NCBI GenBank assembly: GCA_963457665.1 | Contig: OY735209.1 | Span: forward strand, 4,457,081 to 4,521,080 | Reading direction: 5' to 3' | DNA from: Thysanoteuthis rhombus | Lineage: Eukaryota > Mollusca > Cephalopoda > Oegopsida > Thysanoteuthidae | DNA: 64,000 nucleotides | Part shown: piece after piece, positions 22,859-48,995 of the stretch | Layout: each line of letters opens with the position of its first letter | Numbering within the stretch: the first letter of the stretch is position 1 | Notes under the pieces: model-generated | The model's input: the letters and a program-made list of their open reading frames with translations, nothing else | Databases searched by the model: none | What the model was told of the DNA's origin: nothing | Translations under genes and position numbers: made by a program

Positions 22859-22866
22859 TATAAAAG
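22859..22866 (+). promoter_or_regulatory. Candidate TATA box for gene C
   Basis: TATAAAAG, 37 bases upstream of the first-exon block shared with 47937-48008, about the distance expected for a TATA box driving a start site near 22890. The matching minus-strand site has no TATA box in the same place. Confidence 0.5.
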
Positions 22867-22895
22867 CCGAACGACACCGTCTCATGCATCGAAAG

Positions 22896-22965
22896 CAGTT
22901 AATCCCAATCCATTTCATGTTTTTCAAATACACGACCCCCTAAAGTTTGATCATTCGATCACCTT
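22896..22965 (+). other. Candidate non-coding first exon of gene C, with splice donor
   Basis: This block ends ACCTT|GTAAGTATTT, a strong donor at 22966. It is homologous to the minus-strand block 47937-48008: both contain CAGTTAATCC, AATCCAT, AAATACAC and an ACCCCC-like run, then the donor in the same position. No open reading frame with a good start is evident, so it is read as 5' UTR. The intron would run from 22966 to the acceptor at 25767-25768. Confidence 0.6.
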
Positions 22966-25768
22966 GTAAGTATTTAAGGCTTTATCTTATGAATTAATTT
23001 GAACAAATAGTAACAAACTCGGTCTTTCCGATGACCACTTCATATTCGATTGTACCTCTGTCCCATAATCGTGGCTACATTTGTAAATAGAGACGTCTAA
23101 ATGTATGACATTTATGGGACAGTATCTAATACATCCATTCAGTTTTTTTATTGGTTATAGTTTTAATCCATGTTGAATAATTGAATAAAATTTGTTTGCG
23201 ATAATTTGATAACTCGGTTGGCAAGTTTTCTAATTATTTCCTCCTTTTTGTGTTTAATTGTTTATTTGTGGACATGATGAAAAATCTCAATTGTGTCAAT
23301 CAAAACATCTGTAACTTCGGAATCTCTTTGTAAATATTTATCAATTATAGAATAAATAAATGATTGCAGCAAATCATCAACTAATTTTCTTTTTCTGTAG
23401 ACAATATGAAACTGGAGATAACCGAGTCTAAAAAACTTGTTTTGTTTACATTCGCGAACCGGTGGACTTGTTGAAATTGAATGCGGAAATTTCTGCCCGA
23501 TTTTCACAGACATATGAAAATTCCTCCCAAAATCTTCTATTGGCACCAATTCAACAGAAGCCGTTAATTGATCTTTATCAGATTGAATATTGCACACCAT
23601 GAATTCGTTCTGGTACGACGGAATCGTTGCATTAGACGTGCAAAACATTTTTTTTTAGGCACAACCCGTATAAAGTATATTGATCTCTATACAAATCGTT
23701 ATAAATATCAATGAATCTTTAGAGTTTTTCTCAGACTTATACGGAACAATTGCTTTCATGATATATGATTCAATAACAGAAACAATCAAGAACCCACAGT
23801 TATTGGGAAATCATGATATGGTCTTATTTCAGTTTTCTTGCTTTTAAATATTGCTGATTCTCTTAAAAGATTTCAATTTTGGTGGTTACATTAATGCTGC
23901 AGCCAAATTGATATGACCGTTGTATGTTGGCATGAGTGTCTTTAAGAGGATGCATTTAGAAAACTTCTGCAACTCATTTAATTCACTCATTTACCAAGAT
24001 CAAGTAATATAAGTAATCTACTAAAAAAAAAATCTCTGTGGAATAGAAATTCCAGAATTTTAAAATTATTTTTATTACTATCCTAAACAAAAAACACAAT
24101 CATTGTCAGTTGCTGACAATTTATTGATCACAGATTGAGAGTAGCTAATCATCAATATTTCCATTGGAGAAGTTGCAATTTTTTGATTTGTTGATCCTTA
24201 TTTGACCAAAAATGAGCTGAATTTTTTTCTTGTGCAGCAGTCTCACTGTATAATTTTTCATTTTTGGCTTCGATATAGCGTTTGTTAACATTATAGTTAT
24301 GCGTTTTGCACTGTGACATCTTGATCACTACTTCTTTTTATTTTGTATTTTTACAAGCCTTCTCTCTGGCGGAATTGAAATTCTAAAATTATTTCCCAAT
24401 TTTGAAAATTGATTTTTGTATAAATTTGATTCCTTCGGGCTATTAGGAGAAGAATTCAAAGATTTCTGATCCTCAATCCATGCACTTTAGGAAAATGCAT
24501 TGATTAGGGTCCTACAATCTATGGATGTTTGATTGGAAAAATCAACAATAATTAAAATGAAAAAACAATTTCTCATGTACAAAGGCACAGAAAAAAGTTT
24601 CTTATATTTTAACTTTTAAAATATCTAATTTTCTGTTTCCTTTCACTGAATAAAAATATAAGAAGAAAGTAATTTTGTGTTCAGTTCAAAGAAACTGACG
24701 TACACTAAGTCACAATTTTATGTCCTTTAAAAGTATCTTTTGTTATTGTATTAATGTTTCCCTCACCAATCGCGTGAATGCACTGATTCCATTAATGATT
24801 TTTACTGATTTCTTAAACACACGTACACACACCAGTTTGGTCTCTAAAAACCATATATCATGTATCAGGAACTTTTACAAATCCCAATTATGAAAGTGCA
24901 AATAAATCAAAGATTGCAGATAATTTTCATACTTAACTGGTTTGCAATTGTAAACAAATTTTCAACTATGATAATTTTCAGCTTTATATTGTCCACATAG
25001 ATAGTTTTTATTTATAATTTTCTACTATCATTTTTCTTGTTAATAGCACAAATATCATTCTGATGAAATTGATTTGATCCAGACATTTTTATTGACACGT
25101 CTTTTAGCCAAAAAGTCTGTGGTAGTCACGATAATATAAATATATATAAATATTTATGTTTTCCTAAACTTTTAACGTTTTATTTCTACTGTATAACATA
25201 TTTTCTATGATGCAGATTTCTGCAGTACACTGCCAAACACCCCAAAATATTCCCATGAAATTCTTCATAACTGAACCATAAATAATAGAAACTGCAAATA
25301 ACACGGGAAAACTGTTTATAAAATGCGTGTTCAGTTATTTTCATTTAAAACAACATCAAAGTATCTTATGTCTATGAAAGGTTTAAGGATCTCTTTTTGT
25401 AGTACTTATTAGGATAAAAATGCATCTAATTTCTTTGTCAATGAATAAGATTACATTTTAGGATGTTTAAAGGCATTTTCCATCTATCATACCAGGTTGA
25501 AAGAGTGTCTAGGTGTAAGGCTGATAACTTTTCCACAATATTCAATTGTATAAAATCAGAAGGTGTTGATGAGAAATTATTTCTTGAAGAGGAATATTAT
25601 TGTCAAAATAATGATCATAAAAGGAATTAGTGTACAAAAATTCTGTTGCACTTTAAGGGTTGTTAGAAAATGTGAATTATTATTATTATTATCTAATTAA
25701 TTTCTTGGAATACCATATCACATTTTCAATCTGATTCATTTAAACTTTTTTTTTCTTATTCTTTACAG
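22966..25768 (+). other. Candidate intron 1 of gene C
   Basis: Starts GTAAGTATTT and ends TTATTCTTTACAG. It holds the unrecognised minus-strand ORF at 23262-23648 and an (ATT)n tract near 25675-25693. No other feature was recognised. Confidence 0.5.
23262..23648 (-). CDS. Unrecognised 128-residue ORF
   Basis: The product is not recognised. It has an ATG start and normal composition (no low-complexity runs), with charged and hydrophobic residues mixed as in a folded protein; near the middle it has SPPVRECKQNKFFRLGY and near the end VDDLLQSFIYSIIDKYL, which could be helical. There is no signal peptide, zinc-binding motif or membrane segment. It lies antisense inside the intron proposed for gene C. 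A weak TATTTATAA-like word lies about 90 bases upstream on its strand. It could be a small gene, one exon of a larger gene, a transposon relic, or chance. Confidence 0.3.
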   Translation of the reverse strand: MFCTSNATIPSYQNEFMVCNIQSDKDQLTASVELVPIEDFGRNFHMSVKIGQKFPHSISTSPPVRECKQNKFFRLGYLQFHIVYRKRKLVDDLLQSFIYSIIDKYLQRDSEVTDVLIDTIEIFHHVHK

Positions 25769-26832
25769 AAGATCCAGTTGAAAGAATATTTCCTGAAATT
25801 TGATATATTTGAATGGATCTTCATCTCCCTTGATTTTTTTTCTCCCTGTAAACAACAGCAACAATCCTCACCTAATTTGAATTGACCATCATTTTCTTGG
25901 TGACTTCTTCTAAATAACAACAACAATCCTCGCCTAATGTGAATTGATCATTTTCTTGGTGGCTTGGAATGAAGCAAACATGGAAAACTAGCCTGAAGAG
26001 ATGTTGTGGATGTAAATCATCTAATTGTTCAATTTCAAAAAGAAACTTGAGAACTCTAACTGGTGAGAAAACAACAACATGAACAATTCTCACTTAATTG
26101 AATAATCATTTTCTCAGTGACTTAAAATGAAACAAATATGGAAAACTAGTTGGGAAAAATTGGTCAGTTTTAAAAAAGAAACGGGAAGGAAATATTTTGA
26201 ACTGTTGATTTTTCTTTTCATGAAGTTGAATTGATGGTAAAGGTTATTAGGAAGAAAAGATTCTTGTGAAATATGTCATTTCAATATATTTGTTGGCTCT
26301 TCCATTTTTGTCATTTTATAGAACATATTCCAACACATGCTGAAGAGAAATCATGCGTGTGTGGATCTTCTTTTACGTAATTTTAAGGCAACAACACACT
26401 GGAGATAAATCATATATGAACTTTCCTGATTAAGTTTGTGGTTAGGTTCTTCAAAACCATAATTTCAACTGAAACTAAATTATAAAGTGATTCAATTTTG
26501 CCATAGACACAAATGTAGAATTTTATTTTCTGATTTATTGTAGTGTAGGAATTTAGCAACCAACTTATGTGTAGTCAGAAAAGTCACTTCCACCTACAAT
26601 ATTTCATACCTTTGTATATTCATTTCTTTTCCTTCAAAGACATTATTACAAAACAATGTTGAATGAAACAACATTATTTGGAGAGTTCCTGTATTGTCAA
26701 GTTGATGACTTTCTCTTTCAATGAAATCAACTTTTAGGCAATATATGTAATCGTAAATTGGAGAAAAATCTCTTTTGGGGAATATTTGGTGAATGTGAAT
26801 GTTTCATCAGTTATTCTTATGCAGCCTCAAGA
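25769..26832 (+). pseudogene. Relic leaders and fingers upstream of gene C
   Basis: This exon part holds at least two decayed copies of the family leader: ATG at 25980 and at 26138, each reading Met-Glu-Asn then TAG. The first is followed by KSSNCSISKRNLRTLTGEK-like sequence in another frame. A block CCTAATTTGAATTGA..CATTTTCTTGGTG is present three times (25865, 25925, 26085), so the leader region itself was duplicated in tandem. Relic fingers follow near 26320-26410 and 26640-26760. It may serve as 5' UTR. Confidence 0.65.
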
Positions 26833-28029
26833 ATGGAAAAATGCCCCAAAGAAAATTTATCTGTTGAAACTTGTGAATATAAATTAGCAAATAGTTCTAC
26901 TTCTAAAAATCAGTTAAAATCCTATACTAGAGTGAAACCATATTCCTCTGCTGAAGTATATGGCTCTTCATTTTCAGAGAATTCACTCCTGTATCGGCAT
27001 ATGGAAATACCCCCTGGAGCGAAACAATATTCTTGTGAAGTGTGTGGCTCTTCTTTTTCATGGAAGTCACATTTGGCTGGGCATATGAGGAAACACACTG
27101 GAGAGAAACCATATTCCTGTAAAGTGTGTAGCTCTTCATTTACAGAGAAATCAACTTTGGTGGTTCATATGCGAATACACACTGGAGAAAAGCCATATTC
27201 TTGTGAAGTGTGTGGCTCTTCCTTTTCAAAGAAGTCAAGTTTGAGCCGACATGTTCAAACACATACAGGCGAGAAACCATATTCTTGTGAAGTATGTGGC
27301 TGCTCCTTTTCTGAGAATTCACATTTGAACAGACATATGCGAACACACACTGGAGAGAAGCCATATTTGTGTGAAGTGTGTGGCTCCTCCTTTTCAGAAA
27401 ATTCACATTTGAACAGACATATGCGAACACACACTGGAGAGAAAACATATTCTTGTGAAGTGTGTGGCTCTCCTTTTTTTCTAAAGTCACATTTTGTGGC
27501 ACACATGCGAACACACATTGGAGAGAAACCTTATTCTTGTGAGGTATGTGGCTCTTCCTTTTCAAAGAAATCGCATTTGAGCCAACATGTGCGAACACAC
27601 ACAGGAGAAAAGCCATACTCTTGTGAAGTGTGCACCTCATCCTTTGCACGGAAATCACATTTAGTTGGGCATATGCGAACACATACTGGAGAGAAGCCAT
27701 ATTCTTGCAAAGTATGTAACTTTTCCTTCAAACACAATTCACACTTGAGGCGACATATAAAAACACACACTGGAGAGAAACCTTACATGTGTGAAGTATG
27801 TGGATCATCTTTTCCACGAAAATCAAGTTTAGGGCAACATTTAGAAACACACACTGGTAAGAAACCATACATTTGTAAAATATGTGGCTCTTCCTTTTCG
27901 ATGAATTCAACTTTGAAGAGGCATATGCGAACACATACTGGAGAGAAACCATATTCCTGTCAAGTGTGTGATGCTTCATTTTCACAGAAGTCAAGTTTGA
28001 ATCGTCATATGCAATCACACACCGGATAG
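26833..28029 (+). CDS. C2H2 zinc-finger protein C, 12 intact fingers (CGSSF subfamily)
   Basis: I chose the ATG at 26833, 25 codons inside the longest open frame (which starts at 26758), because MEKCPKE matches the leader of E, F and B. The leader (residues 1-39) has lost a cysteine and histidines of its first finger; one further degenerate finger follows (AEVYGSSFSENSLLYRH). Then come 12 intact 28-residue C2H2 fingers with the core CEVCGSSFS and TGEKPY linkers. The family role is nuclear sequence-specific DNA binding; the target is unknown. Fingers 4 and 5 share the helix SENSHLNRH, a recent duplication. The array ends at a TAG replacing the GAG of a linker (HTG*K), and a relic finger follows to about 28110. 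No other domain is present. A first exon and TATA box are proposed at 22859-22965. Confidence 0.9.
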   Translation: MEKCPKENLSVETCEYKLANSSTSKNQLKSYTRVKPYSSAEVYGSSFSENSLLYRHMEIPPGAKQYSCEVCGSSFSWKSHLAGHMRKHTGEKPYSCKVCSSSFTEKSTLVVHMRIHTGEKPYSCEVCGSSFSKKSSLSRHVQTHTGEKPYSCEVCGCSFSENSHLNRHMRTHTGEKPYLCEVCGSSFSENSHLNRHMRTHTGEKTYSCEVCGSPFFLKSHFVAHMRTHIGEKPYSCEVCGSSFSKKSHLSQHVRTHTGEKPYSCEVCTSSFARKSHLVGHMRTHTGEKPYSCKVCNFSFKHNSHLRRHIKTHTGEKPYMCEVCGSSFPRKSSLGQHLETHTGKKPYICKICGSSFSMNSTLKRHMRTHTGEKPYSCQVCDASFSQKSSLNRHMQSHTG

Positions 28030-28110
28030 AAATGATTTTCATTCATAGTATGTCGATCTACCATTTCATATAAGTTAACTTTTGTAAAACATAAACACTC
28101 ACTCGAAAGC
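28030..28110 (+). pseudogene. Relic finger after gene C
   Basis: Directly after the stop, sequence in the same frame (after a second stop) reads FSFIVCRSTISYKLTFVKH, a decayed C2H2 finger. It probably forms the start of the 3' UTR. Confidence 0.6.
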
Positions 28111-28189
28111 AACCTTACTTTTTCAAATTTCATCTTTAAGTAATTCATGTAGAACAATACTTACCTCACTAAGCATTGAATGAATAATA

Positions 28190-28375
28190 TCTGAAAAATA
28201 TATTAACTCAATTCCTACCAATATGTACATCTGTAAACATCCAATATTATCCTCTCCTACTGGAAGCTTATGTACTGTAGGGAGCCATTGTAGCTCATCT
28301 CTGATTGGCTTTTTGCGCTGACTTAACAAATGTTATGTAAATAAGACATTAGTCCAGCCTTATATGTTCACACAT
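28190..28375 (+). repeat. Direct repeat of about 185 bases, copy 1
   Basis: Matches 28873-29055: both share TCAATTYCTWCCA, GTAGGGAGC/GGAAGGAAGCAA, TCTGATTGGYTTT and GACATYAGTCCAGCCTTATA in order. The ATTGG and CTTATAT words recall a CCAAT box and TATA box, so a promoter-bearing repeat such as a solo LTR is conceivable, but no LTR ends were found. Confidence 0.65.
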
Positions 28376-28872
28376 TCCCCTTTTCTCTCAAGCCAAACCA
28401 AATATCAACAACCCTAAATACTGCACAGAATATCATAATTATGATTCATAAGTTCTCTTATCCCTCGTTCCTCAACGAAACAAGACATCAAAGTACTTAA
28501 TTGTCTGAAATCAAATTCTAAATAATAACTCCTTCACTTAATTTCTTGATTATTCAATTGGACATACTTAATTAATTGGCAGAATTAGCAATGTCTACCC
28601 CCAGGAAAAAATGCACTTTAAACATGTTCTATAATATCTAGCTTTTATCTTCACACTTCAAGTGAGCGTCTCTTTATCAAACATTCATTTTCTCTGAAGT
28701 ACCTTCCACTTGCTTCTTAGTGAAATCTCCACTAACATTTCAATTTCTCTTTGAACAACTATATCAACTCTCATAGTTCACTTTTCTCTCAGACAATTCA
28801 TATATAACATGACCAGGTTTCCGGTAAACTCAATTATATTTTTTCATCCTCCAACTACACTTTGCTACCTTG
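28376..28872. other. Spacer between two direct repeats
   Basis: AT-rich sequence with no recognised gene or element. Confidence 0.45.
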
Positions 28873-29055
28873 AAAAAATATATGAGCTCAATTTCTTCCA
28901 GTATGAATACCTTCGGGCATCTAATAGTGCCTTCCCCAAGCAGAGGTTTATATACGGAAGGAAGCAACTCTAGCTTATTTCTGATTGGTTTTCAGTGCTA
29001 ACTTTACAAATGTTAATTAAATTAGACATCAGTCCAGCCTTATATAATCACAATA
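28873..29055 (+). repeat. Direct repeat of about 185 bases, copy 2
   Basis: Second copy of the block at 28190-28375, same orientation, about 683 bases downstream and clearly diverged. Confidence 0.65.
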
Positions 29056-31899
29056 CCATATTCTTAGACTGAATGTGACAATCACCAGAGTTTGTGTGGG
29101 TCTCAGTCGTTTTGCTGAATGCTGTATCACTAACACACAATCAGCCGACAAAACTTTCGCTGTGCAGCTAATTCAAAGATAACCTTTTTCACAAAGTGAT
29201 GTTTTGTCAACTTGGATTTTGAAATTTTGTGGTGGTCAAACCATAAAAGACCAAATCCATCAAAAATATGTCAGGATTTTGCCAAAATGATTTTTAAATT
29301 TTTAAGCTTCATTTAAAAACATCTAAATTCATTTCCAGTAGCTAAAATCAATATTAACATCTGAAAATCCAACCAAAATTATATGAATTTAGATGTAAAA
29401 CATCTTAGCTTCAAATTTGAAATACAGCACACTCCTCTGCCTTACCATTTCATAATTTTCAGTATATTTTAAGTTTTTTGTAAATCCAGTCATCAATTAA
29501 TAATTGAATTAATTAGTTTTTGGAGACCTACTTGATTTTTGAAATATTTCTCATTAAACATTCTTAACATAAGTTTAATTTTTCTGTTGACAAGAGAGAG
29601 ACACATCCTCTGAATAAATTATTTGTTGTTTTTGACAAAATAACAAATAAGCTTGATTAATCTGTTTATATAACTTATAGGAACGATAAGAGAACTTCTC
29701 TTGACAGAAAATCAGCATCTGATGAGAAAAATCTTTGTATGTTTATGTATGATGCCAATAATGTAAGTAAATGGAAAATATTACTACTTCAAAACAACAT
29801 GATATTCTATTCATTAAATATCGAAAATATGCTTTTTATTTCTTAAGACTAAAATTTGGACAAAAAGTTAAACTAAGAAAAGACTGAAGAACTATTTTTT
29901 TTTTTCCTCAATTCTAATTACTTTATATAGAGTTGATGTCTGTTGGATTTTTTTCTCTGATCATCGGCAAAAATTGATTTTATGTTTTTTATGACCCTGT
30001 TTGTGTTCTTCCAATGTTGAGATGTAAAATAAAATTATTTTTTAAGAAAATTCACTGCTTTTTTTTCATTCATGTTTCTTAAACTCTAAATAATGTGAAG
30101 TATTCATTGACATCAATTAGTGAGAAGCCAAGTGGGTGACACATCATTTCATCAAAAAGGTTGAATAGGCTGCATGGCAACAGTGTTATCAACTGTGTCG
30201 TCATATAACATTTGATGAAATGACTGGATGTGGTTCGTGTGTGCATGTATTAAGTTAAGCTTATGATCGGTCGCATATTGGGTTTGATCAAATCGCTTCG
30301 GTGAAATTTTAGGCTAAAACTTAAAAGTAAATTCTCACAATAATGTGTTTGTATTATTCATACAAATAAATTTCATTGGGTATTGTTATAACTCATAAGA
30401 CAATACAGGTAACTCATACTATTTTTTGATCTACGTCCCTGTTTTGGACAGTTGACCTCCAGACAATTTTGTGCGGAAATTTGTGCCAAGATCACCATCT
30501 GTGATATGCCATGATTTTTGGTAAATCCAGCTAGTTTGAATTCTGCCTGCCCAAGACTGGACATGACCACAGCGTCCCCTAAACTACTACCATGTCTGGA
30601 AACAATAGTCTATTACTACTAAAAACTAACTACCCCTCTAACCTATTTCTCTCCTGTTTTTCCTTGAATGAAGCACTAAAGCTTCTAATTAGCAACAGAC
30701 AACTGGAATGGACTCACAAACCCGCAAGCATTTACCCTTAAGAAAAATATGTAGGTATGTCTTCCTAATATTTATTTTAGGCTTGGCTTGATTTGACTTC
30801 CTCGAAGTTCAAGTCATTAAAGGAAATATATATATATTCAAAATCCCTGCCAAAAGCTTAGCTGAAAAACTTACTTGCCTTCTCCTGTTTACAAATTTAA
30901 TGTTATTTATCGTATTTTGTTTTCTTAGTGAAAACGTATTCTCTGAGATTACATTGTTATTATTGTTTTAATAACTTAATTGATGTTTCTCAAAAGCTTC
31001 ATCCAATTTAGTGAATAGTTTCAGTTTACTTTAATGATTTTTCATTGTCACCTGGACTCTTTGCCAAATATCATTTTCCTGACAAAATTTATAAGCACTG
31101 AAAATAAGAAATTTATGAGAATGATAATCGAAAAAAAATATATAAAAACCAATTCAAGAAGTTGAGAGATGACGTAGGAAGAATTTGTCCAGCTCTGAAA
31201 TATCATTTTCCAAAAATGCCTGACCTTTTTTTTGACCCCACATCAACAAAAGTAGGGACTATGTCAGTTTTAAAATGTCATTTTTTTCTTTTAAGGCTTT
31301 TTAGGCTTTTTCTTCCTAATAAAGCCTGGAAAAACTTGACAATGAGAATTTTAAAATTTTGTCTTTCTGAAATAAGGTGTTGATTGGTAAAAGAAGACTA
31401 AAATTTGTAAATAACATGAAATTCACTTCCAATCAACATATTTTAAGTTTATTTTTTATATCATTATTATTGTTTTAGTGGTTTTCAATGTATAGAAAGA
31501 TAAATAGATATTAAGAAAAAGGTTTGACCAACTGGTGCTAGATATACACCATGTAATGTTCTGACTTACTAACAGACCTAGGAACAGAGCTTGTTTGAAA
31601 CCTTGGGACTCCTTGTATTAGTACCAAAAATTACCCACCAAAATTTGACTGAACCATTTTTTGTGAAACTATACAATCTCTTTGCTACGGAAACCAACAG
31701 CAATTACTGCTCCCTCCTCACATACTCTAGGACCTAGCTGTAAATAACAACTTCCAATATAGATTCTCCATCACTAAACTATTTAGCAAAAAATCTTTCA
31801 ACTTGAAAAAAGATCAATGCCTCTTTTCTGTAATAATAATTTTTATCATTACAATATATAATTGAATAACCTTACCCAATCAAAGATGTCCATCTTTTT
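29056..31899. other. Intergenic DNA with a short inverted repeat
   Basis: No gene was recognised. The only clear structure is a 13-base perfect inverted repeat, TCATTTCATCAAA at 30144-30156 and TTTGATGAAATGA at 30211-30223, which could be a short MITE. Confidence 0.45.
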
Positions 31900-32150
31900 T
31901 CATATGCATTTTTATATGCAAGTTCCAGCACTCCTGGCCATATTGTTTTGTCTAGAGACTTGGAAATGGGCACTAGCACTCCACTAGACCCCTTCTAAAA
32001 ACACTTTTTTGATTTTAGGGGAAAAAATCTTTTTTGTCCTTTTGGGGCCTCATTCTGGTGGTTCTATTAATAATTCTATTTTAGATGTTTTGCAGTGGAA
32101 AATGTCAGCAATGTCATAAATAGAATTTACTCTGACCATATTCATTCTTG
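31900..32150 (-). repeat. Dispersed repeat family R, copy 2
   Basis: The reverse complement matches 6150-6790 in order: a CAGAGTAAATTCTATTTATGACA-like block, then AGTGGAGTGCTAGTG, then TTTCCAAGTCTCTAGACAAAA, then ATATGGCCAGGAGTGCTGGA. Confidence 0.7.
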
Positions 32151-35100
32151 AATGGATAATTTTTTTTACATGGCTTCTAATTTTGAAGTTACAGTCATTC
32201 AATCATTGACAGTAATGACGAGTTTTTACTTATATTTCATTCCTTCCAATAGAGTGGAAGAAAATTAATGTAAGAAAAATTCAGTAGTTGTTGTTAAATA
32301 ATCTGGAGTTTTTCAACTTCTTTGAAAGCTGTTGGCTTTAGTTTTGAGGAGAGTCATTAACAATCAGTTTTAATTGATGGTTGACCATAGTTAGAGAGAA
32401 AAAGACAAACATTTCCTTCTAGAAGAGAAAGCTGTTGGAAACTGAGGAAGGAGACAGTCTATATCAACATGTCAACTGAATGTATAAGTCAGACGAGTGC
32501 AGAGTTCAACCTGATGTGGCTTCCACTACTCAACAGAGACAAGATATGGAAATCCACACATAACAAGGGAAGAAAAAGAAATCAATATTAGCTGAATCCA
32601 ACATCGCATTGTGGCTACCATTGGATTATTCTGTTTACTCTCATTAAATTTAGATGATAAACCTAAAGAAGGCCGTAGAACATATTGGGTGAAACGCCAT
32701 GTTAATTATGCAAATAACAAGAAGGAAATCAATGGTCCAAAAACCTCTTTGAATGTTATTTATGTTTCATAATGTAGAGAGATCTTCCTATTTTGAGGAA
32801 GACATTGTTATTTAATTCACTTGAAATAGTAGCAGGAATTTCATATCAAGTTTTCTAAAAAAGAAACTTATGAACATTTTGTCATAAAAATTTTTCAAAT
32901 GATTTATGGTACTTCATCTAAAAAAATTTTTTCAAAGTAAAAATGTATTTTTTAAAAAACTTTTCATAATAGCAACTTCCTCACAAGAAATTATTATAAT
33001 ATCTTCTTTATACACTAATAAATTGTCTCTGTTAAATTGCATTTCTCACTCATTTTCTTTCACACGTGAATTGTCACATTGTTGATTATCTCTTTTACTA
33101 CAATACCAGAGAGAAAGAGAAGTCGAAGTAATCTCTTTCACTTAGCAGAGTTTATACTTTCTCCACCACCTTATGCTTCTGCTTGATCGACAGAAAGATC
33201 ATCAGCATCATAGTATAGTAACTGGATTGCTTGAAAATTACTACTACAATTACCTCTCTACATTTAGAAATGAACAAACTTATATCAGTTCATGTTGGGA
33301 TTTACAATGGGTCAGACTTGAACCGATAAACCGTGTTATAAATTAAATAATCACATGATATATGGTTTATATAGTTATATCGTCAATCATGTTCAGGGTA
33401 TGTACTTTCCAATATTAATACAGTATTGAACCTAACAAGCTAACAAAGACACCCTTCGCCATTTTAACGAGGGTTCACTTTGTCAGTTCCAATGCTGGTT
33501 CACTTTCTTAATGTTGAATACTTGATTCATGAAGTGATTATGTTTGCAATAATTAAAAATGTCTACAACTGTACAATACAAAAAGGCATCTTATTGATGA
33601 CTTTGAGTTAAAACATTTTGTATTCAATGTGAATTTGATTAAACTCAAGCAAATCCTGACATGACAGACACTGTATGATATCATGTGGAACGTCTTCAGC
33701 CTTACAGAAATGTGAACAAACCAATTCTGAAAATTTCTGGCACAACTTTTTTTTTAATAATTCAATGCAAAAAGAAGTTGGACTTTTCCCGCTCTCTGAG
33801 GTTCCATTGAGTATCACATTACAGATTTGGTGGTTACTTTAGGCAATCTATCCAGAAAAAATTGTGTCATCTGCAAAAGTATTTGTGTGAAAATAAAAGC
33901 TATTACCTTTTATCCCCTGACTTGGTTTACTGAAATAGCAGTGGGGAGTGAACACGCCTACCTTATGTGAATATGGTGGTAGTGCTATTATTGCTACTAT
34001 TAAAGTTTACATTGTGTTATTTTTAACCAAACTAAGTAATTAACTTTGTAACAATTGATTGCTTTTTTGTGATTGATTTTACGTATTTATAAATTCTGAG
34101 AAACACACCATAGAACCAATAAGAAATCTAAAAAGAATAAGGCAGGAGACAATTTTTTACTTGTATTAGACGAACAAAATTATGAATTTTTGTTTTTATG
34201 GTTGATTTTCAATACTTGAAATTATCTAGGTTTTTTTTATTTATAAAATTTCTTTTAATATTTTTTAAACCTTTAAAATTTGAGATACTTTCAAGAAATT
34301 TTAATTGTGCTTTTCCCTGAGTAGGCAATGGGGTCCAGACAACCTAGACCTCCCCCCCTCTTTTGATCCATGCCTGATATACAAACAAATGCAACCAAAA
34401 AAATGAAGCTCTTCTCAACTTCATTCACAGAGTTAAAATGTCATTTCTACACTTTTTATAGAACCATAGACATTAACTTTTGTCTCTGCTGTTTGCATCT
34501 AAAAATGTCAAAATGATAATGATGAGGATTTTCAGGCTCAAATCTTCCACATTTGAAAATTCAAATATTGTGAGTTCAATAAAACTTGCTGTAGTTTATC
34601 CATTAACTGTTTACTTTATCTGAGGATTCTGATAAAATCTTGGGAAATAATTTCTCCCTTCCAAGCAAATACCTAATACATTTTACGAAATCAATAGTTG
34701 ATTGGGGATCGTACTGGAAATATTTTTATATATTTTCAAAGATGATACCTTGAAAAATAAATTCTGTTAATCATCTGGAAAAGATTTCAGGTATCCTATA
34801 TTGAAAACTTCAAAACTGTAAGATAAAAATATTTATGCAATATTTGGAAACTTACTTTAGAATTATTCCAGAATAAAATAAAAAGAAGAAATGCTTTTCA
34901 TAGTTTTTCTCTCAACTAATCTCATAGAATGGGGGTTAAGTGCAGTGAGCCATATACTTACAAAGAAATGAAATTGCTTAGATGTTGTTAGTTGTGGTGG
35001 TTTGACACTATTTATCAAAGCTCAGACCAGATATTCCCACACTAGTTAAAAATCATCAACTTCAAGGTTCACATTAGTAGCAAAAATACATGTATGACTC

Positions 35101-35800: not shown

Positions 35801-35834
<34 letters not shown>

Positions 35835-35923
35835 GAAGGGAGAGTTGTTTTTTGGAGGGTTTCCCCAAGAAAGTTTGGTTATTGAAAAGTGTTTCCTTGA
35901 ATTGTTGAAGTTTGAAAATCACT
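35428..35923. mobile_element. Non-autonomous hAT-like element
   Basis: The left end (CAGTCGTTAAACTGT) and the inverse of the right end (CAGTGATTTTCAAACTTC) resemble hAT terminal inverted repeats. Internal strings such as CCAGGGGTTCTACG and GGGTTTCCCCAAGAAAGTTTGG are typical of old non-autonomous hAT copies. Flanks share GTAGAG, as an imperfect 8-base target duplication. An (AT)n tract lies inside at 35807-35834. No transposase is present. Confidence 0.5.
35807..35834. repeat. (AT)n microsatellite
   Basis: About 14 AT units inside the hAT-like element. Confidence 0.95.
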
Positions 35924-38089: not shown

Positions 38090-39202
38090 TACAAACCCAC
38101 ACACTGAAATTTCTCTCCAGCATGTGTTCATACATGTTTTCACCAACTTAAACTCCCTGAAGATGCTGATCAACACAAAATGTTTACTACCTAGTGTGTA
38201 TTTGCACGTGTCTTTTCAAATGTGAATTGTGAAAATCCTGATCCACACACTTTACAAGAAAATGGTGTTTCTCCTGTGTGTATTCGCATATGCTTTTTCA
38301 AACAAGAACTCCCTGAAAATGCTGACCCACATACTGTGCATGAATAAGGTTTCTCACCAGTATGTTTTCGCATATGTACTTTTAAATTTGAATTGTCTGA
38401 AAATGCTGATCCACACACTTCACAAGAAAATGGTCTCTCTCCAGTGTGTGTTTGCATACGTCATTTCAGATCTGATCTCTGAAAATGCTGATTTACACAT
38501 TGTGCATGGATAAGGTTTCTCTCCAGTGTGTTTTTACATGTGAATTCCTTGAAAATGTTGATCCACACACTTCACAAGAAGGTTTCTCTCCCATGTGAAT
38601 TTGCATATGTCTTTTCAACTGTGAACTCCCTGAAAATACTGATCCACACATTTGACAAGATAATGGTTTCCCTTTTTTGTGCATTTGCATATGTTTTTTT
38701 GAATTGGAATCATCTAGAAATGCTGACTCACTTTCCGTACACAAATAAAGTTTGTTCCCAGTGTGTGTTCTCATGTAAACATTTAAATTTGATTTGATTG
38801 CAAACGCTGATCCACACACTTCACAAGAATATGGTTTTTCTCCCATGTGTGTTTTCATATGTAATTTTAAATTGTAATTCTTTGAAAATACTAATTCACA
38901 GACTTCACAAGAAAATGGTTTCTCTCTTGTGTGCACTTGCATGTGTCTTTTCAATTTTGTGCCTTGTGGAAAAGTTGCTCTGAACACTTGACAAGCATTT
39001 TTCTGCCTGTTTACTTTGAAATGTGCATTCAATAAAGATGCTGATTTATAGACAATGTAAGAATAAAGGTTATCTTCTTTGTGTGCTTGAAATGTAACTA
39101 CTTGTATATGAATTCTGCGAAAATGCAGATTTACAAACTTAGCAAGAATATACAGGTGTCTTTTCAAATTTGAAAATGGTCGATCTCCCTAACAATTGAT
39201 AT
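38090..39202 (-). pseudogene. Decayed C2H2 zinc-finger gene D (CGSAF subfamily)
   Basis: Read from 39202 leftwards, after an acceptor-like TTTACAG (AG at 39203-39204), this is an array of about a dozen fingers. Reasonably intact ones include [57 protein letters not shown] and [19 protein letters not shown]. Others have lost zinc ligands: a His to Tyr change in NVYMRTH, no CXXC in YLCTESESAF, and a short deletion before RETLSMH. A frame break lies between 38457 and 38493, and another frameshift near 38215 ends the array in relics to about 38090. The CGSAF core and the SDNSNLK helix tie it to gene A, although it is on the opposite strand. A first exon is proposed at 41206-41300. Confidence 0.85.
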
Positions 39203-39526
39203 CTGTAAATGAGAAATAAGCATTATTAAAGAAAACAAGAGACTCATTCATAACTTGGTTTGTTTTGCAATTAACTGCTGTAGATCACAAGATTTGTGTT
39301 CAATCATAAATAGAATATTTGTAATTCAGTTCGACAAATATAATTTAATGGAATATTATTCAAAAACAGGAGTTTTTACTTTTCCCTATTCTAAGCAAGG
39401 TTGTTTGACCACTTTTCACAACAAAGGGCCAGTAAGATGGGAGAATTAAAACCAGAAAAACAATTGTTAAAATGATTTATTGATGCAAAGCTGGAAACAC
39501 TAAAACATGTTTGAATTGAAGACTAA
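39203..39526. other. Intron or intergenic DNA beside locus D
   Basis: Likely part of the first intron of D on the minus strand (39203-41205). Nothing else was recognised. Confidence 0.4.
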
Positions 39527-39576
39527 AAATGAGAGAATTAAAATGACTGTAATGAGTTATTTTAATTCTCTCATTT
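39527..39576. repeat. Near-perfect hairpin (inverted repeat)
   Basis: Arms of 22 bases (39527-39548 and 39555-39576; AAATGAGAGAATTAAAATGA is the start of the left arm) pair with a single mismatch across a 6-base loop. It could be a small foldback element or a hairpin RNA. It ends 21 bases before the ATG of the ORF at 39598. Confidence 0.85.
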
Positions 39577-39597
39577 AGTTAGTTAAAAACAATAAAA

Positions 39598-39936
39598 ATG
39601 GAGAGCAAAAACAAAATTTTAAAAAGACTAACATTTGGTAGAGCACTTGTTCTCTCTGGATTTAAAAATGTCAAGATTGTACAGGAAATAAATTCAGAAA
39701 GGAGTCCATTCCACAAAGCGCATGTTCTTCAGAAGAAGCTATTTGCAGAGTCCTTGGTATATCTAAAAAGTAGAAGATATGCATCAATCGCTGACAGAGT
39801 TCTAACTGAAAATTCACAAAAACAAGAATTTAGTTCATCTGAAAAATTTTCATGGAATGGCAGAAAAGTGCCAAAGTTGCAACATTATGACGATAAGACA
39901 GTGGCTAGAGTGTGCAAAAAGTTAATCACTCACTAG
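39598..39936 (+). CDS. Unrecognised 112-residue basic ORF
   Basis: The product is not recognised. It is lysine- and arginine-rich (for example MESKNKILKRLTFGRA at the start, YLKSRRYASIADR in the middle, FSWNGRKVPKLQHYDD near the end) and has no cysteine pairs, membrane segment or signal peptide. The ATG context (AAAATGGAG) is good. Codon composition looks less biased to A/T than its flanks, which favours a coding origin. It sits inside the intron proposed for D, on the other strand. It may be a small gene, an exon, or a retrocopy or transposon fragment. Confidence 0.35.
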   Translation: MESKNKILKRLTFGRALVLSGFKNVKIVQEINSERSPFHKAHVLQKKLFAESLVYLKSRRYASIADRVLTENSQKQEFSSSEKFSWNGRKVPKLQHYDDKTVARVCKKLITH

Positions 39937-41205
39937 TCAGCGCTTTTACTTCTGTATTCTTTTGATTGTGAAGAGTGCCTGATGAGAGGAGCCTGCCAAT
40001 ATGTGTGCGCAGTACTCTATATTTGGATGGATTACCGGAGATATACTTATCAGAAATGAAAGGACATGTTATTATCGATTGAAATATGACAACAATATTC
40101 ACACAGTAGCATTTAACAATACAAGTGTTTTCGTATAAAACCTTTCATGATTTTAAAAACGAACTTGAAGAATAATTTTTCCTCTTTTTATTTTCTGCAT
40201 AGCAAACTAACAATTCCTCAAGAAATATTCATTCACTTTTTGTTTTAAATGGAGATAAAATGTTGATTTGTTGAACTGCACAATCAAAATTATCATGAAA
40301 TTAATTGTACAATGGTTTATACCTTTATATCTAAAATTGTTTCCTGTTCTGATAATAAAAATTAGTTGGAAAACTTTTTTTCAAAACGTCTGAATAACAT
40401 AACTTGTTCTGACACAAAATGACGATCTTTCTTCAGTTATTTAAAATTTATATAAAAGACGAATCTAGCCACCTTTAGCCATTCAAATATAGCCAATGAA
40501 AAAAATGACCAGTCCTGATGTGTTATCGGAAGGACTGCCAATATTACCTGCACTGAATGAATGTTGAAAAAAATAATGTTGCCAAAATCCTTTCCTTCAC
40601 GGAGAACTGCTAGGTTAAAAAAAATGAAATCTTAAACCGAATATTTTTACAGATAATTTTGTAAAATTAAAAATGACGATGGGCTGAATGAAGAACGATT
40701 AAACAATTTTAGCCAAAAAAAATTAGAAAAAAATGAATTGACAAATAGAAACAGATTTCATAAAATTATTAAATCTCAAAAATTATTCTCCAAACTGGGC
40801 ACCCATTACGTTTTACAATTGTCGAATTTTGTTACGGGGATTCATACATGTAATTATTTTATTTTTTGGATTAGTCATTGTTATTACTCACTGGGATTGA
40901 ATTACTTTTAAAAGTCGTAGTTGTTGTTAGTGGTGGTACTTGATGGTATCCATAAATACTTTTCTTTTCTGTATGTTCAACCAATTGCATTCACTGGCAA
41001 TCGTTACTTTTCCCGTTTTTAAATAGCCATCATATCAGAACGGCATACAAGCCATAAAAATACTGAATAATTTTCAGATTCAGGAAAAAGAAGAAATAGT
41101 TGATCTTAATTCTTCTTCATGAATGAAAGAATAATAAATTAAAGAGTGATTTTTTTTATTCATTTTTATTTCTAAATAAAGAAAATAAGAGAATGTTATA
41201 CTTAC
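39937..41205. other. Intron or intergenic DNA upstream of D
   Basis: AT-rich. No gene or repeat copy was recognised. Confidence 0.4.
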
Positions 41206-41300
41206 TTCTTTCTCTTTTCTTTCATCTGATATCTCTTCCTCAGGGAAATGCAATATTAGAGAAAAACCAGGAAACTATTCAATCTCAAATAAACAAAAAT
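41206..41300 (-). other. Candidate first exon of locus D, with splice donor
   Basis: On the minus strand the block ends AAAGAGAAAGAA|GTAAGTATAAC (donor GT at 41205-41204). It is homologous to the minus-strand block at 56840-56940: GGGAAATGCAAT, TTAGAGAA, GAAACTATTCAAT and CTCAAATAAAC or its variant are shared (given as plus strand). The left boundary is set by the donor; the right boundary is only the end of clear similarity. A plus-strand reading with an acceptor (CTTCCTCAG at about 41237-41245) is possible but is not conserved in the other copy. Confidence 0.5.
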
Positions 41301-42139
41301 GATTTTTATTGCATCAAGTTTCCAAGTATCTTTCGTTTGCGATCGATAAAAAATGTTTTTGAAGAGCGGAGGTCAAGGGAGATAATTGATGGGAAATCAA
41401 GAAAGAAAGATCTGGAACGACATTTTTTCCATTTTTTTTCCAGGAAAATCAAGATCCAATCAAGTATTTCACTTCAAGTATATTAATTCTTTCTTAAAAA
41501 TTCACCTTGTTAGATGATTTAAAGAATGGCAATGATGGCTTAGGTTGAGTTCGGTAACCTAAACTCAACGATCCTACAAATAATGTTCACTTAGCATTAT
41601 GGAAGCACATACAGGATATTTATAAGATAAGATTTTCGGTAAGGAAAATTAAAGAAAAATGAAAAAAACTGTTTTTAAATGCGATTTTCCCTTACTCGCT
41701 ACCTGGAAGGTTATCTGAAATAAGTTACAAAATATTTTTAAAAGTTATAAATAAGGTAAACTGATTTCATGATTGACGCATGAATCAAGATGAGATCGAT
41801 GTTGTTCTCTCATAAATTGCTGTTCAGTTAGAATACGCCTAGGGGAAACCGGGCACAGTGGATCAGAAAAAATAATTGTAGATTGAAGTCAATTTTATTG
41901 ATAGGATTAAGTGAAAAAACAACGATCAACTCTTTCAGCAATGAATAGTTGGTTTGCTATGAAACTACAGATTTTATTTAAGTACATTGTTAAATTGTAG
42001 ACGATGTAACAAAAAAAAGAAGCCTAAAAATCTCTCAAATATTCATCAGCAAAAGTTAGGCACTCTGGGGGAAAGTGGGGGGGTTGACACCGAGATGATT
42101 GCCTGAAAAAAAGTCAAACGTTGTTTCGTGGTAATTTTT
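41301..42139. other. Intergenic DNA, nothing recognised
   Basis: AT-rich. No gene was recognised. Confidence 0.4.
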
Positions 42140-42620
42140 TTTTCTAATGAAGCATCTGTTTGTCCACACCATAACCTCCCCTGCGTCATAGTTACAGGTC
42201 CACACCACATGATATTGCCAAAAGTTACTGTCTGTCCACATATCTCCAAAAGTTATCGCTAAATTAAATTGAAATTCTGTGGAAGGGTGAGCAACGGAGG
42301 TGGGGGTAAGTTGGTTGAATTTTGGGGTGGATCAAGAAATGTCTTTTTGATTGAGAGATATTTTTCCATCAAGTTCCTACTATTTTGTATATGCTCATGA
42401 TTCTTCACACTATATCTCCAAGAGTTCTAAATGAATTTCAATGTAGTTTTGTGAAATCGTGGACATTACAGAACAAAAGAAATGATTGAATTTTGGTACC
42501 ATGCATAAATACATCCCACTATGCCTTAGTTTTATCTCCACACAACATATCACCAAAAGTTCATTACTATCCACACAATATCTCCCAAAGTTCTCAATGA
42601 AAATTTGAGGAAGGGTAGTG
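42140..42620 (+). repeat. Dispersed repeat family T, several units
   Basis: Repeated phrases such as TCCACACAAYATATC, TCTCCAAAAGTT and GGAAGGGTGAGCAACGGAGG occur several times here, with partial copies at 51945-52090 and, inverted, at 56290-56490. They resemble the tail of an old retroelement, but the family is not certain. Confidence 0.5.
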
Positions 42621-44069
42621 AAGAGGGAAGAAAATGAATGTCAGAGGGAATTATGATAATCACTGAATAGATCTTTATCTGGTCTTCTTCATTGTGCAGG
42701 CTGTGATGGATTCCCCAAATGTTTTATGGAGATCTTTCTCAAGGCAGCAGATCCCTTTTCTATCACCATAACACTGCTAGAATGATGTGGACCATAGTTG
42801 CATCAGTTTCCTTTAAAGAGGGTGTGAAGGCTAAGTCTAAATTCATCTTCAAATGCTTGAAAAAAAAAGTGTAACCTTGAGTCTTTGGAGAGTGTTACAT
42901 ATTCAATCAAGATAGTGCACACATCCAATATTACCAAGACATAGAGCATAGAGACAAGCACATCCATCCCATGGATTTTACCACCTGATCCAGTATGGAG
43001 TAGTTGCTAGCCAGTACACTCATGTCAACTACAGCCATCCTTGATAATCTATGTCTCGGCTTGAGATACATAGAATGGTCTAGGAGGCAATAAGCACCCC
43101 AGGTGGCATCACTCACTCAAAAACTCGGAAGAAACTGCACACATATACTGAGAAAAGTCAACCCGAAGAATATGGAAATTAGAAGCTTGTGGGAAGATCT
43201 TGATCTGGAAGGAGAGGACGATAGACTGAGGTTTCCATGGGGGAGGCAACCGGTCAAAAAGTTAGCATGTAGGTCAGGTAGACATTTCTCAAAACATAGA
43301 CATGAACAGACTGGATGTTATGTGCATGAGAGGGGATGTGCGTGCTCCCCTAGGACAAAACTAGACATACATTAAAGAACATAATACCAGAAGGCCAGAG
43401 GATACAAAGCCAAAATATTGTGAAACAAACAACAAAGAAGAGGATATTAGTTTGAACAAACTATACACAATGATCCAATAAAGTCATAAGACACATTTCT
43501 ATCACAACTGCTAAACAGAATTTATAAATTTCTTCTAATCACAAAACTTAAACAACCGTCTTAATCACTATTAATGGACAGTGACACATATTGTCTTCTC
43601 TGGGAAAGCTAATGTACAATAACATCATTTCAAATATATTGCTCGACTGAAAACTTCAGTCAAGCTTTCAAACAGTTTTATTACTATCTATATCTTCATA
43701 ATAGATGTCAGAAGTTACCATATATTTCTGCAGGTAAGACACTTGAAACATCCAATGAACATCCCACAAGATGGGATAATCTGATAGACAAGATGCAAAT
43801 ATATTGATATTTATGATAATAATAGAATTAGCTCAGTCAGAATATATAGATCCACACCCATCATTTTTTATTTGAAACACAAAAAATATGAAAAAATCAA
43901 TAGGATTATGGTTTGTTATCAATGGTAATTTTCATGAATATCAAGTGGACTTCTGCAAAAGATTACAGCCACAAACATTCTAGGGCATTTATAATCTCTC
44001 AGCTTCATTTATATGGCTTTTCAAATCAGATATTTTTTGCTAAATTTTTTTTTCCAGTATGAATTCTTT
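42621..44069. other. Intergenic DNA 3' of gene E
   Basis: ORFs at 42931-43116 (minus) and 43103-43375 (plus) have a less AT-rich composition, so an old element may be present, but no protein family was recognised. Confidence 0.4.
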
Positions 44070-44419
44070 TATTCACAGCATGGACTCTGACTTCTTCATA
44101 AAAAGTGATGCAAAGACTTCACAAGAGTATGTTTTATGTTTAATATCTGTCACAGTATTTGTTGAAGCATCATATACTTGACAAAAACATGGTTTGTCTC
44201 CAGTATATGATCCCATATGGGGCACCTAATGAGATACTTGTTAACATGAAGACTGAAAATTGCAAGAATATGTCACACTAAATTGGATTCAGAAAAAAAG
44301 ATTCACACATTTCACAAGAATATGGTATCTCTCCAGGGCATATTTCCATATGCTGTGCTAAATAAGATTTTAATAAATAAGCAGACCAAAGCATTTTACA
44401 AGTGTGTAAAAGATTAATA
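44070..44419 (-). pseudogene. Relic fingers downstream of gene E
   Basis: After the stop of E, decayed finger pieces remain. Plus-strand signatures of fingers, such as CTTCACAAGAGTATG at 44118 and TTTCACAAGAATATGG at 44307, still occur. The spacer ATTTTAATAAATAAGCAGACC at 44367-44387 is also found downstream of locus F (53367-53387). They likely form the 3' UTR of E. Confidence 0.6.
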
Positions 44420-45199
44420 TCATTTCTTCTCAGAGTGTGTCCGCATATGTTGCTTCAAATATGATTTCTTCGTAAAGGAGGCATGACACACTTCACATGG
44501 ATATAGTTTCTCCTTGGTGTGCCTTTGCATATGTCTATTCAAATTTGACTTCTGTGCAAAAGAACAGCCACATTCTTCACAAGAATATGGTTTCTCTCCA
44601 GTATGTGTTCTCATATGTTCAATTAAATGTGAATTCACTGAAAATGAAGAGCCACACACTCCACAAGAATATGGCTTCTCTCCAGTGTGTGTTCGTATAT
44701 GCCCCAACAAATGTTCTTTTCGTGAAAAAGAGGAGTCACACACTTCACATGAATATGGTTTCTCTCCAGTGTGCGTTTGCATATGTCTGATCAATTGTGA
44801 ATTCACTGGAAAGGAAGAGTCACACACTTCACAAGAATATGGCTTTTCTCCAGTATGTGATCGCATATGTTTGTCCAAATGTGACTTCTGTGAAAAAGAA
44901 GAGTTGCACACTTCACAAGAATATGGTTTTTCTCCAGTGTGTGTTCGCATATGTCTGTTCAATTTTGACTTCTCTGAAAAAGAAGAGCCACATAATTCAC
45001 AAGAATATGGCTTCTCTCCAGTGTGTGTTCGCATATGAACCAACAAATATGATTTCTCTGTAAAGGAAAAACCACACACTTCACAATAATATGGTTTCTC
45101 TTCAGTATGGGTTTTCAAGTGTTTCTTGAAATTTGAACTATTAGACAACTGACAACTACAAGTTTTACAAATGAATTTTTTTTCAGAGTAATTTTCCAT
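44420..45199 (-). CDS. C2H2 zinc-finger protein E, leader finger plus 8 fingers (CGSSF subfamily)
   Basis: The 259-residue product starts MENYSEKKF and has an intact divergent leader finger, CKTCSCQLSNSSNFKKHLKTH (residues 11-31), then eight 28-residue C2H2 fingers with TGEKPYSC linkers and helices such as SEKSKLNR, SQKSHLDK, PVNSQLIR and SRKEHLLG. It ends HSEKK then TGA at a linker. A nuclear DNA-binding role is inferred from the family; the target is unknown, and no accessory domain is present. This is the best-preserved example of the shared leader, so it was used to pick starts for C and F. The upstream exon part (45200-45507) carries a relic finger and an acceptor (AG at 45508-45509); a first exon is proposed at 47937-48008. 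The gene has no internal stop or frameshift, unlike its neighbour F. Confidence 0.92.
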   Translation of the reverse strand: MENYSEKKFICKTCSCQLSNSSNFKKHLKTHTEEKPYYCEVCGFSFTEKSYLLVHMRTHTGEKPYSCELCGSSFSEKSKLNRHMRTHTGEKPYSCEVCNSSFSQKSHLDKHMRSHTGEKPYSCEVCDSSFPVNSQLIRHMQTHTGEKPYSCEVCDSSFSRKEHLLGHIRTHTGEKPYSCGVCGSSFSVNSHLIEHMRTHTGEKPYSCEECGCSFAQKSNLNRHMQRHTKEKLYPCEVCHASFTKKSYLKQHMRTHSEKK

Positions 45200-45507
45200 A
45201 ATTTACTTTTTTGAGGTCATGAAAAAAATTAAACAGTCTAATTTACCAATTTATGAAAGTTCCTAATATTTCATGAAAAGGAAGATCCATACATTACAAA
45301 TGAATTAAATTTTTTTCCCAGTTTGTGATCGCATATATGGCCTCAAAAAAAAGTAAGAAAGTCATCCACTCCACAAAAATATTGTCTCCAGAAGTTTTTT
45401 TAAAATGTTGCCCATGATTTCATGAAAAGAATTTCTCTTTGATGGGAGTTTTTAAGTTTTTCTTTTTTAAACTGAACAGTCAGACAATATGATTCTTAGC
45501 TGGAACA
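45200..45507 (-). other. 5' part of the main exon of gene E
   Basis: Begins after TTTTTCTTACAG on the minus strand and opens with ATGTTCCAGC..GAATCATATTGTCTGA, homologous to 55479-55440 at locus F (both contain a TCTGACTGTTCAGTTT or TCTAATAGTTCAATTT block). A relic finger lies at 45265-45345. The leader ATG of E follows at 45199. Confidence 0.55.
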
Positions 45508-47936
45508 TCTGTAAGAAAAAGAAAAAAAAACTGAAGTTAAATAATGCATAATAATTCAAAAAACTAATTAGATTATATTAATTCACTTTTTGTTTCAATA
45601 GGCTCAGCAGCATCCAATTTTTTTTATAAAATTCCTTTTATCATGATCTGACTTTCTTCAGGGTGAGGTAATAGGAATTTTTCTGAGGGTAGGGAAGGCA
45701 TCAATAAAGTGTTTTGCTGGAATGTCTTTATCAAACAATTTTGGGTGGGGGCTATTCCTAGATTCAAACAATGCTGTTGACCATTTTTTCAAGACATAAT
45801 CCTGTCGTCTAGAGGGCAATGGATGTGCTTTTTTTTTTTCTACATCCGTACAAATAGTTGTGTACAAACATTGCAATCTTGAAATTGAAAGAAGGGCATA
45901 TAACTCTTTTTGGTTCTGAAGGGAAACAGTTAGCTCCTTTGATTTGTTAATCAGTGAGACAAAATGAAAAAATTTTCATGTTATGGAATAAAATGAGGAG
46001 CCAAAGTTTTGAGCATAAATGAGATGGAAAGGTTTATAATAAAAAGATAACTTTTGGGCAGATTGCAGCAATTATAAAAGATCCAGTTTCAATAAGTTGT
46101 CTTAAGAGAAGATACTTGCCAGCACAAATTGAGAGAGGAAAGTAACTGAGCAAATCCACTGGTAATTAAAAAAGAATCACTCGCAGAAGTAAAAAAACAA
46201 ATTTCAATATAGTGAAGAAGAAAAAATTTTGAGTGGGACATTATGTGGTCATTATGGATTAATTTATTTATAAAAAAGAATATATTGAAAGATGAAATTG
46301 TGGAAATAGTCTGTATGTCAATCAACCCATTGTCCATATTCAACCAATGAAATCTCTATAAAACATAATGTGATAATTTTTTTAAATTAAAATATATTGA
46401 AGACGTTGGCATTGGGGGAAAAAATATTCAAAATTATTTTTTAGAAAAGTTCATTTAGCTAGACCTGAATTCATAGACATTTTTTCAAAAACTTGAGAAT
46501 GATTCTTTTCATTGGTTACTAGGGAAACTTTGTTATAAAATAAATGTGTGCTTTCATAATCGTGAAATGTAAGTTGAACAAAATCCTTGTTTTAGAGATT
46601 TTTATTGGAATTAAATACTGAATTATACAAATTTTAGTTTTTTCATCTTTGTTGCAAGAAAAGACAGAATTTTCATTATGCTTTCAAAATGCTGTCAAAG
46701 ATTTTTCAAAAGTGTATGATCATTGCTAATATTCTCTCATTGATTACTTTGTTGAGCCTTTTATAATAATAAGTCCATAAGTTTCTATCATTGAATACCT
46801 AGATTCTTTTAGAAACAATAAAATCTTCCTTAATTTGAAGACTTTCCATTGGGAAACAACATCTGTAGAAATAGAGGTAAAAAATAAACAAAGTATTAAC
46901 TAAAATCAAAATAATAAATTTTTTTTTTGCTCAAATCCATGGGAATTTTTAGATATGTCCACACAGCTCTATGAAATGCTTTTCTGTCAGTCAGTCAATC
47001 CCAGTTAACTTGAACAACAGAAATAGGAATGAAGGAAGAGGTGTGATGTCATTAAAAGGCAAGATATCATTTGAAAGTGTACCCTCTATTCGAATCAATT
47101 CTTTTTAGCAGTAGCAGCAGATCTCATAATAGAATAAGCAAGGTCTGCATAAAAGCTAAAAATGGCCATACTTGATTTATATGGAAAACTATACTTGCAG
47201 AATATTTCCATATCAGAATATTTTAGAAGTATGAGAATCGACTGACAGAAGAAATACTGCTCGCTCTTCTTTCTCCTCCTGTTACCACGGACGGTGGACG
47301 CATCGTTGAACTTATGGTTTTTGTTTTAATGCAATTAAAAATAAGAGCAAGATTACCAAATTTCAATTATCTCGCTTGATATTTCCAAATATCAAGAAAC
47401 CACAAGGGACATGGTTATTACTTGATAAAAAAAAAAGATAGTTTGTGTTTTTTCATTCATAAGATAATTTTTCATAGAAACTTTGACTGAAAAAGAAAGT
47501 GAATAACTTGGAAAATCTTGCCCAAAGCAAAGATAAGATATTTCATCGGTATTTTCTATATCTAAAGAACAAAGTAAGGTTTTGTAACAGTTGAAAAAAA
47601 GACTCTTTTTTCCTGAATTTCTAATTGGTTTGAATCAGCAACTAAACCCTGAAAACTACTCGGAAATATAGATTTTTTATGTCCACAAAAAAAACAAAAA
47701 AACAATTAAACACAAGAAGGAAAGAAAATAAAGAGGAAAGTTGATGACCGAATTATTAAACTATCGCTAATGTTATTCAATCATTCCACATGGATTATAA
47801 CGATAAACAACAAAGTAACTAAATTAATGTATTAAATATGAGTTAATTGCGATCGAATATGAATCGGTCATCATCAAGACTGAGTTTGTTATTATTTATT
47901 CGAGTTAATCGGTAAAATAAAACTTTACGTACTTAC
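45508..47936 (-). other. Candidate intron 1 of gene E
   Basis: From the donor GTAAGTACGT (GT at 47936-47935) to the acceptor TTTCTTACAG (AG at 45509-45508). No gene was recognised inside. A short block related to 38005-38070 lies at 47270-47330. Confidence 0.5.
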
Positions 47937-48008
47937 AAGATAGTCGAATGCGTAAACTCTGGGGGTTTGTGTATTTAAAAAAGATTGGATGGATTAGGAT
48001 TAACTGTG
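47937..48008 (-). other. Candidate non-coding first exon of gene E, with splice donor
   Basis: Read on the minus strand it runs CAGTTAATCCTAATCCATCC, continues through an ACAAACCCCCAGAG segment and ends ACTATCTT|GTAAGTACGT. The block aligns along its length with 22896-22965 on the plus strand, donor included, so the two are paralogous first exons. No coding potential is apparent. No TATA box is seen at the equivalent upstream distance. Confidence 0.65.

Positions 48009-48739: not shown

Positions 48740-48740
<1 letters not shown>
48009..48740. other. Upstream region of gene E
   Basis: AT-rich. No separate gene was recognised. It should contain the promoter of E if the first exon is correct. 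Confidence 0.4.
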
Positions 48741-48821
<81 letters not shown>

Positions 48822-48854
48822 AATACATCGAAACAACTGTCTGTGGATGACACA

Positions 48855-48898
<44 letters not shown>

Positions 48899-48943
48899 AT
48901 AATACATCGAAACAACTGTGGATGACACAATAATATATATATA

Positions 48944-48993: not shown

Positions 48994-48995
<2 letters not shown>

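Follow-up and report, generated by a model that had tools for sequence, protein, structure and literature searches.

Two C2H2 zinc-finger genes lie on opposite strands of a 64-kb stretch of Thysanoteuthis rhombus DNA (the window, analysed at its full length), and each is preceded at a distance of 2.4–2.8 kb by a short block that resembles the other and is followed by GTAAGT. Do these blocks mark untranslated first exons, and were they copied together with the genes? Gene C (26833-28029, plus strand) is an open reading frame of 398 aa with 12 C2H2 fingers, and gene E (44420-45199, minus strand) one of 259 aa with 9. Both carry tandem fingers in open frame and score above the Pfam cut-offs for zf-C2H2 and zf-H2C2_2.

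Extent and edges of the paralogous segments

The block at 22896-22965 on the plus strand aligns without gaps with 48006-47937 on the minus strand (54/70 identical), as the original prediction held apart from a slight shift on the E side. GTAAGT comes next in both, from 22966 upwards and from 47936 downwards. An ungapped 155-base match (22896-23050 and 48006-47852) has a BLAST E of 1.7e-29, and a further piece of 149 columns (23123-23269 and 47838-47694) is 77.9% identical at E 3.0e-26. The best local score of the pair is 158, and the highest that 200 resamplings reach is 41; here and in the comparisons downstream of the acceptors, the controls are first-order Markov sequences and not exact dinucleotide shuffles. 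Judged by these alignments, the blocks at C and E are paralogues.

The blocks had been predicted to end exactly at GTAAGT. The hexamer is indeed next in both copies, but similarity runs on through the following 85 bases (67/85 identical) and into the 77.9% piece. Exon part and intron part do not differ in identity (Fisher p 0.85), and so the edge of an exon is not visible in the conservation even though the donor is common to both. Similarity stops near 23292 in the C copy and near 47665 in the E copy. This delimits segments of 397 nt (22896-23292, plus strand) and 342 nt (47665-48006, minus strand) with approximate 3' edges. The 5' edge is sharp, with 29/100 identical positions across the 100 bases preceding the blocks. 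Farther upstream, a comparison of 20300-22895 with 48007-53300 gives no more than ten short matches with E at or below 1, of which the best has E 0.04. In the remaining parts of the introns (23293-25745 and 45535-47664), eight short matches reach E 1 or better, the strongest covering 26 bases (E 0.004) and 44 bases (E 0.015), which leaves 2.1–2.5 kb of adjoining intron with short weak matches and no clear similarity. The pairwise intron alignment that had been suggested as a check likewise reveals no clear homology past the segment, with 0.30–0.64 identity per 60 columns from 23278 to the acceptor. Because similarity crosses GTAAGT, ends near 23292 and 47665 and is followed by introns that are only weakly alike, the natural unit in these alignments is the whole segment, and the proposed exon makes up roughly its first fifth.

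A third copy was sought in the 64-kb window with a two-copy profile and BLAST, and none was detected. The paralogy of the two copies, their extent, orientation and distances and the lack of a third copy in the window are established.

The main rival to reading the blocks as gene leaders is a low-copy repeat: a short interspersed element, two copies of which landed by chance upstream of C and E with an incidental GTAAGT. Abrupt edges at both ends, beyond which similarity is not carried, fit such an element. Against it, only two copies were detected in 64 kb, and the segments have no terminal inverted repeats and, by eye, no target-site duplication or tail. We found no inverted pairs in 22800-23400 and one internal 15-nt pair in 47600-48100, and end-to-end alignments are weak; the hallmarks of a DNA transposon or MITE are thus absent from the segment, with target-site duplication judged by eye only. 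Rfam gave no match for the whole window at gathering scores or, with the threshold relaxed to E 1, for the C copy by itself, and a tRNA search found none. In our assessment of the sequence, the missing transposon hallmarks and the presence of two copies lower the likelihood of a low-copy repeat, which we regard as unlikely but still worth weighing.

A pattern search of viral contigs returned 18 stretches, in which the strongest segment match covers 18–32 bases at the segment start, the part selected by the pattern. Such matches (best E 2.9e-5, in three contigs) were taken as chance. A search of viral contigs for relatives of the gene E protein gave three pattern matches, none of them confirmed.

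The window also contains other repeats and motifs. A foldback of about 280 bases (50093-50372), with arms of 63 nt and 20 nt at 79% and 90% complementarity, is possibly a small hairpin transposon by its sequence. A repeat family outside the finger arrays (6082-6737, 31911-32225 and 55497-55575) has 71–84% identity, and a direct repeat (41173-41300 and 56807-56936; 130 columns, 84.6%, E 7.6e-34) has the best E among the listed pairs of the window self-comparison, a listing without finger-to-finger pairs. Pfam matched 0 of eight stop-to-stop frames picked by eye from 112. The motif TAATCC, which we take to be an Otx/Bicoid-type homeodomain site, occurs in sense twice in the C copy (22900-22905 and 23164-23169) and three times in the E copy (from 48002, 47996 and 47797 downwards, minus strand), where the whole window has 10 on one strand and 16 on the other; its presence in the copies was noticed afterwards.

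The candidate first exon and its splice sites

The candidate untranslated first exons are 22896-22965 (plus strand) for gene C and 47937-48006 (minus strand) for gene E. Their donor context is identical, CTT|GTAAGT. The common hexamer is only modest evidence for an exon, because GTAAGT occurs 38 times in the window (17 and 21 on the two strands) and, of the 150 hexamers along the ungapped 155-base match, 31 coincide between the copies anyway. No reading frame of the six crosses the 70-nt exon without a stop in both copies, and mismatches in the block pair have no three-base periodicity (phase 14/9/11, p 0.57); a coding role for the block was rejected on both grounds. The prediction of non-coding first exons is accordingly supported, and an untranslated exon is plausible.

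The mismatches also bear on a third reading, in which the segments are what is left of an old duplication or gene-conversion tract and escaped intron turnover, containing no exon and serving no function. They look neutral, being uniform over exon and intron parts, lacking codon phase and comprising 24 transitions to 10 transversions, and there is other decayed finger material in the window. A remnant sits poorly with the adjoining 2.1–2.5 kb of intron, where the best match reaches only E 0.004, and with start-codon regions of C and E that are less alike than the segments (126/187 global, 99/142 local). We consider it improbable, more so than the repeat.

Upstream, a TATA-like motif, TATAAAAG (22859-22866, plus strand), starts 37 bases before the C block. 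It is weak evidence, as the same motif turns up 6 + 2 times in the window, and none was seen at the corresponding place upstream of the E block. A sigma-70 promoter scan found 0 promoters, with a model that is not applicable to a eukaryote.

Downstream, acceptor-like CAG sites at 25769 (C) and 45508 (E) predict introns of 2,803 nt and 2,428 nt. Matching acceptors 2.8 and 2.4 kb away had been foreseen. Acceptor-like sites do exist and are alike locally, but the E site is at 45508 instead of 45507 and the 120 bases directly after the two sites are not related. The two sites have in common a T-rich tract, CAG and, by eye, 7/9 first exon bases; BLAST with the low-complexity filter off, as in the other runs of that BLAST set and in the local second-exon comparisons, matches them over 42 columns at 83%, a stretch that includes the long T run. 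Across the 120 bases after the acceptors, C and E are alike only at chance level (306/500 resamplings reach the score), and the significant pairs among genes B, C, E and F are B-C and E-F (0/500 each). Scores no better than chance were also obtained for the remaining three pairs (253, 347 and 485 of 500). A stretch like C's lies at 18521-18550 (plus strand), 19 bases past the acceptor-like site of B (exon start 18502), and an exon start like E's follows the acceptor of F at 55403-55479 (minus strand) by sequence comparison. Neither has the block upstream.

In the untranslated part of the candidate second exon of C (25769-26832, plus strand) lie a 62-bp tandem repeat and a copy, now decayed, of the start-codon segment, which matches the start-codon region of F. 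The 62-bp unit is present in about two tandem copies and a further partial copy at 25849-26149, just past the candidate acceptor. About 250 bases downstream of the acceptor-like site, this exon also holds a stretch like E (31/39) and F (51/60); the local C/E match spans 39 columns at 79.5%, and a global alignment of a C/E second-exon stretch gives 68/114. The corresponding part of E (45200-45508, minus strand) matches F and includes decayed finger-like sequence. The predicted leaders hold 26 upstream ATGs in 1,134 nt for C (20.8 expected) and 9 in about 380 nt for E (6.3 expected), slightly above expectation.

Relationships among the zinc-finger genes

The original prediction also held that first exon, intron position and zinc-finger exon were copied together. 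Around the start codon, global alignments give 150/194 for E-F, 138/187 for C-F and 126/187 for C-E, with B less alike to the others (73/149 to 89/158); these counts take in poorly alignable flanks and understate identity. Local BLAST gives 161/215 for E-F, 88/117 for C-F, 99/142 for C-E and 97/137 for E-B. By both measures C-E is the least alike pair among C, E and F, and in these alignments the nearest relative of E among the four genes compared is F.

The block was not found by the two-copy profile at F or B, even though their upstream DNA is present as far as the arrays of G and A, respectively. A candidate first exon of F near 58132, a 31-column match at E 0.56, was rejected as the place is absent from the two-copy profile listing. 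No single gene pair is closest at every part: C and E share the block, but after the acceptor C goes with B and E with F. The block is therefore common to two genes that, in these comparisons, do not stand out as a pair anywhere else along their length, and joint copying is not supported; to uphold it, the block would have to have been lost from B and F. The sequences suggest either that loss or separate exchange or insertion of the block.

A block history unlike that of the zinc-finger exons speaks for a repeat. So do the global alignments, in which the block (54/70, 67/85) is more alike than either the start-codon region of C and E (126/187) or their second-exon stretch (68/114). The 39-column second-exon match at 79.5% and C/E finger arrays that match at up to 78.5%, comparable to the block, mean that the block is not plainly the most alike part. 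Its like placement at two genes also weighs against a repeat: two elements placed at random fall 2.0–3.2 kb upstream in sense at two different genes among four with a frequency of 0.001 (200,000 draws), for a distance range and genes chosen after the data were seen.

Presence of the block also parallels gene integrity. Arrays are unbroken in A, with 28 fingers, in C, with 12, in E, with 9, and in G, with 11 up to the point where the window cuts the array; the fingers of B, D and F (18777-20300, 38191-39188 and 53400-54800) are split over frames with stops, so that these three look like pseudogenes from their sequence. Finger type is GSAF in A and D and GSSF in the remaining genes. Among GSSF-type genes whose upstream DNA falls inside the window, the block is at 2/2 intact genes (C and E) and 0/2 broken ones (B and F); the two-copy profile did not detect it at the intact, GSAF-type A. 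The association fits a working leader, with tiny numbers and a grouping made after seeing the data.

A putative leader of C2H2 zinc-finger genes

We propose, tentatively and at a little under even odds, that the blocks are two copies of a unit of 342–397 nt that forms the 5' leader of C2H2 zinc-finger genes. The unit would comprise a probable untranslated first exon with its GTAAGT donor and the first 270–330 bases of the intron, 2.4–2.8 kb upstream of the zinc-finger exon. Transcription may start at the block or a little ahead of it, and splicing would join the leader exon to 25769 in C or 45508 in E. The decayed start-codon-segment and finger copies would then lie in the untranslated part of the second exon, where upstream ATGs may damp translation unless further splicing removes part of that exon. 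Selection or recent exchange could have kept the unit alike while the remaining intron was replaced, in two intact genes of one finger type whose related cluster members B and F are broken.

This leader is favored by the significant match, the sense orientation and similar upstream distance at C and E, the common GTAAGT, the TATA-like motif on the C side, the non-coding exon and the presence of the block at intact C and E but not, as far as detected, at broken B and F. Several observations oppose it. Identity is no higher in the exon part (54/70) than in the intron part (67/85), so the conservation lacks the shape of an exon; similarity begins downstream of the would-be core promoter (29/100 upstream), and no TATA-like motif was seen at the corresponding place at E. 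The block was detected neither at F, the nearest relative of E among the genes compared, nor at intact A; upstream ATGs are many in the predicted leaders, and GTAAGT is common in the window. Overall, the paralogy is real but modest, and the segment is most likely nothing more unusual than the leader region of duplicated zinc-finger genes. A far-fetched variant is that the leader is a separately exchanged 0.35 kb start-of-transcription cassette, moved or converted independently of the finger exons and kept only by intact genes; such a module would begin a few bases past the probable start site.

Comparable architectures are described in part in the literature. An account of the zebrafish FiNZ-ZNF genes describes one domain-encoding exon upstream of the finger exon and likens them to KRAB-ZNF genes (PMC10547256). 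Like both, the genes considered here have the array in a single downstream exon and physically clustered paralogues; unlike the FiNZ-ZNF upstream exon, which encodes a domain, the candidate first exon in the window is untranslated (PMC10547256). Cephalopod C2H2 expansions are attributed, in a second paper, to lineage-specific duplication, as would fit this cluster, with duplicates often in different co-expression modules; its main text never uses the words exon, intron or UTR and is silent on leader exons (PMC12513265). A limited literature search showed no prior report of the C/E leader.

As a repeat, the segment would be just an ordinary low-copy element. Should the leader prove real, gene models based on open reading frames would miss the true 5' ends in such clusters, and the leader itself could be used as a sequence tag for telling live from dead zinc-finger genes.
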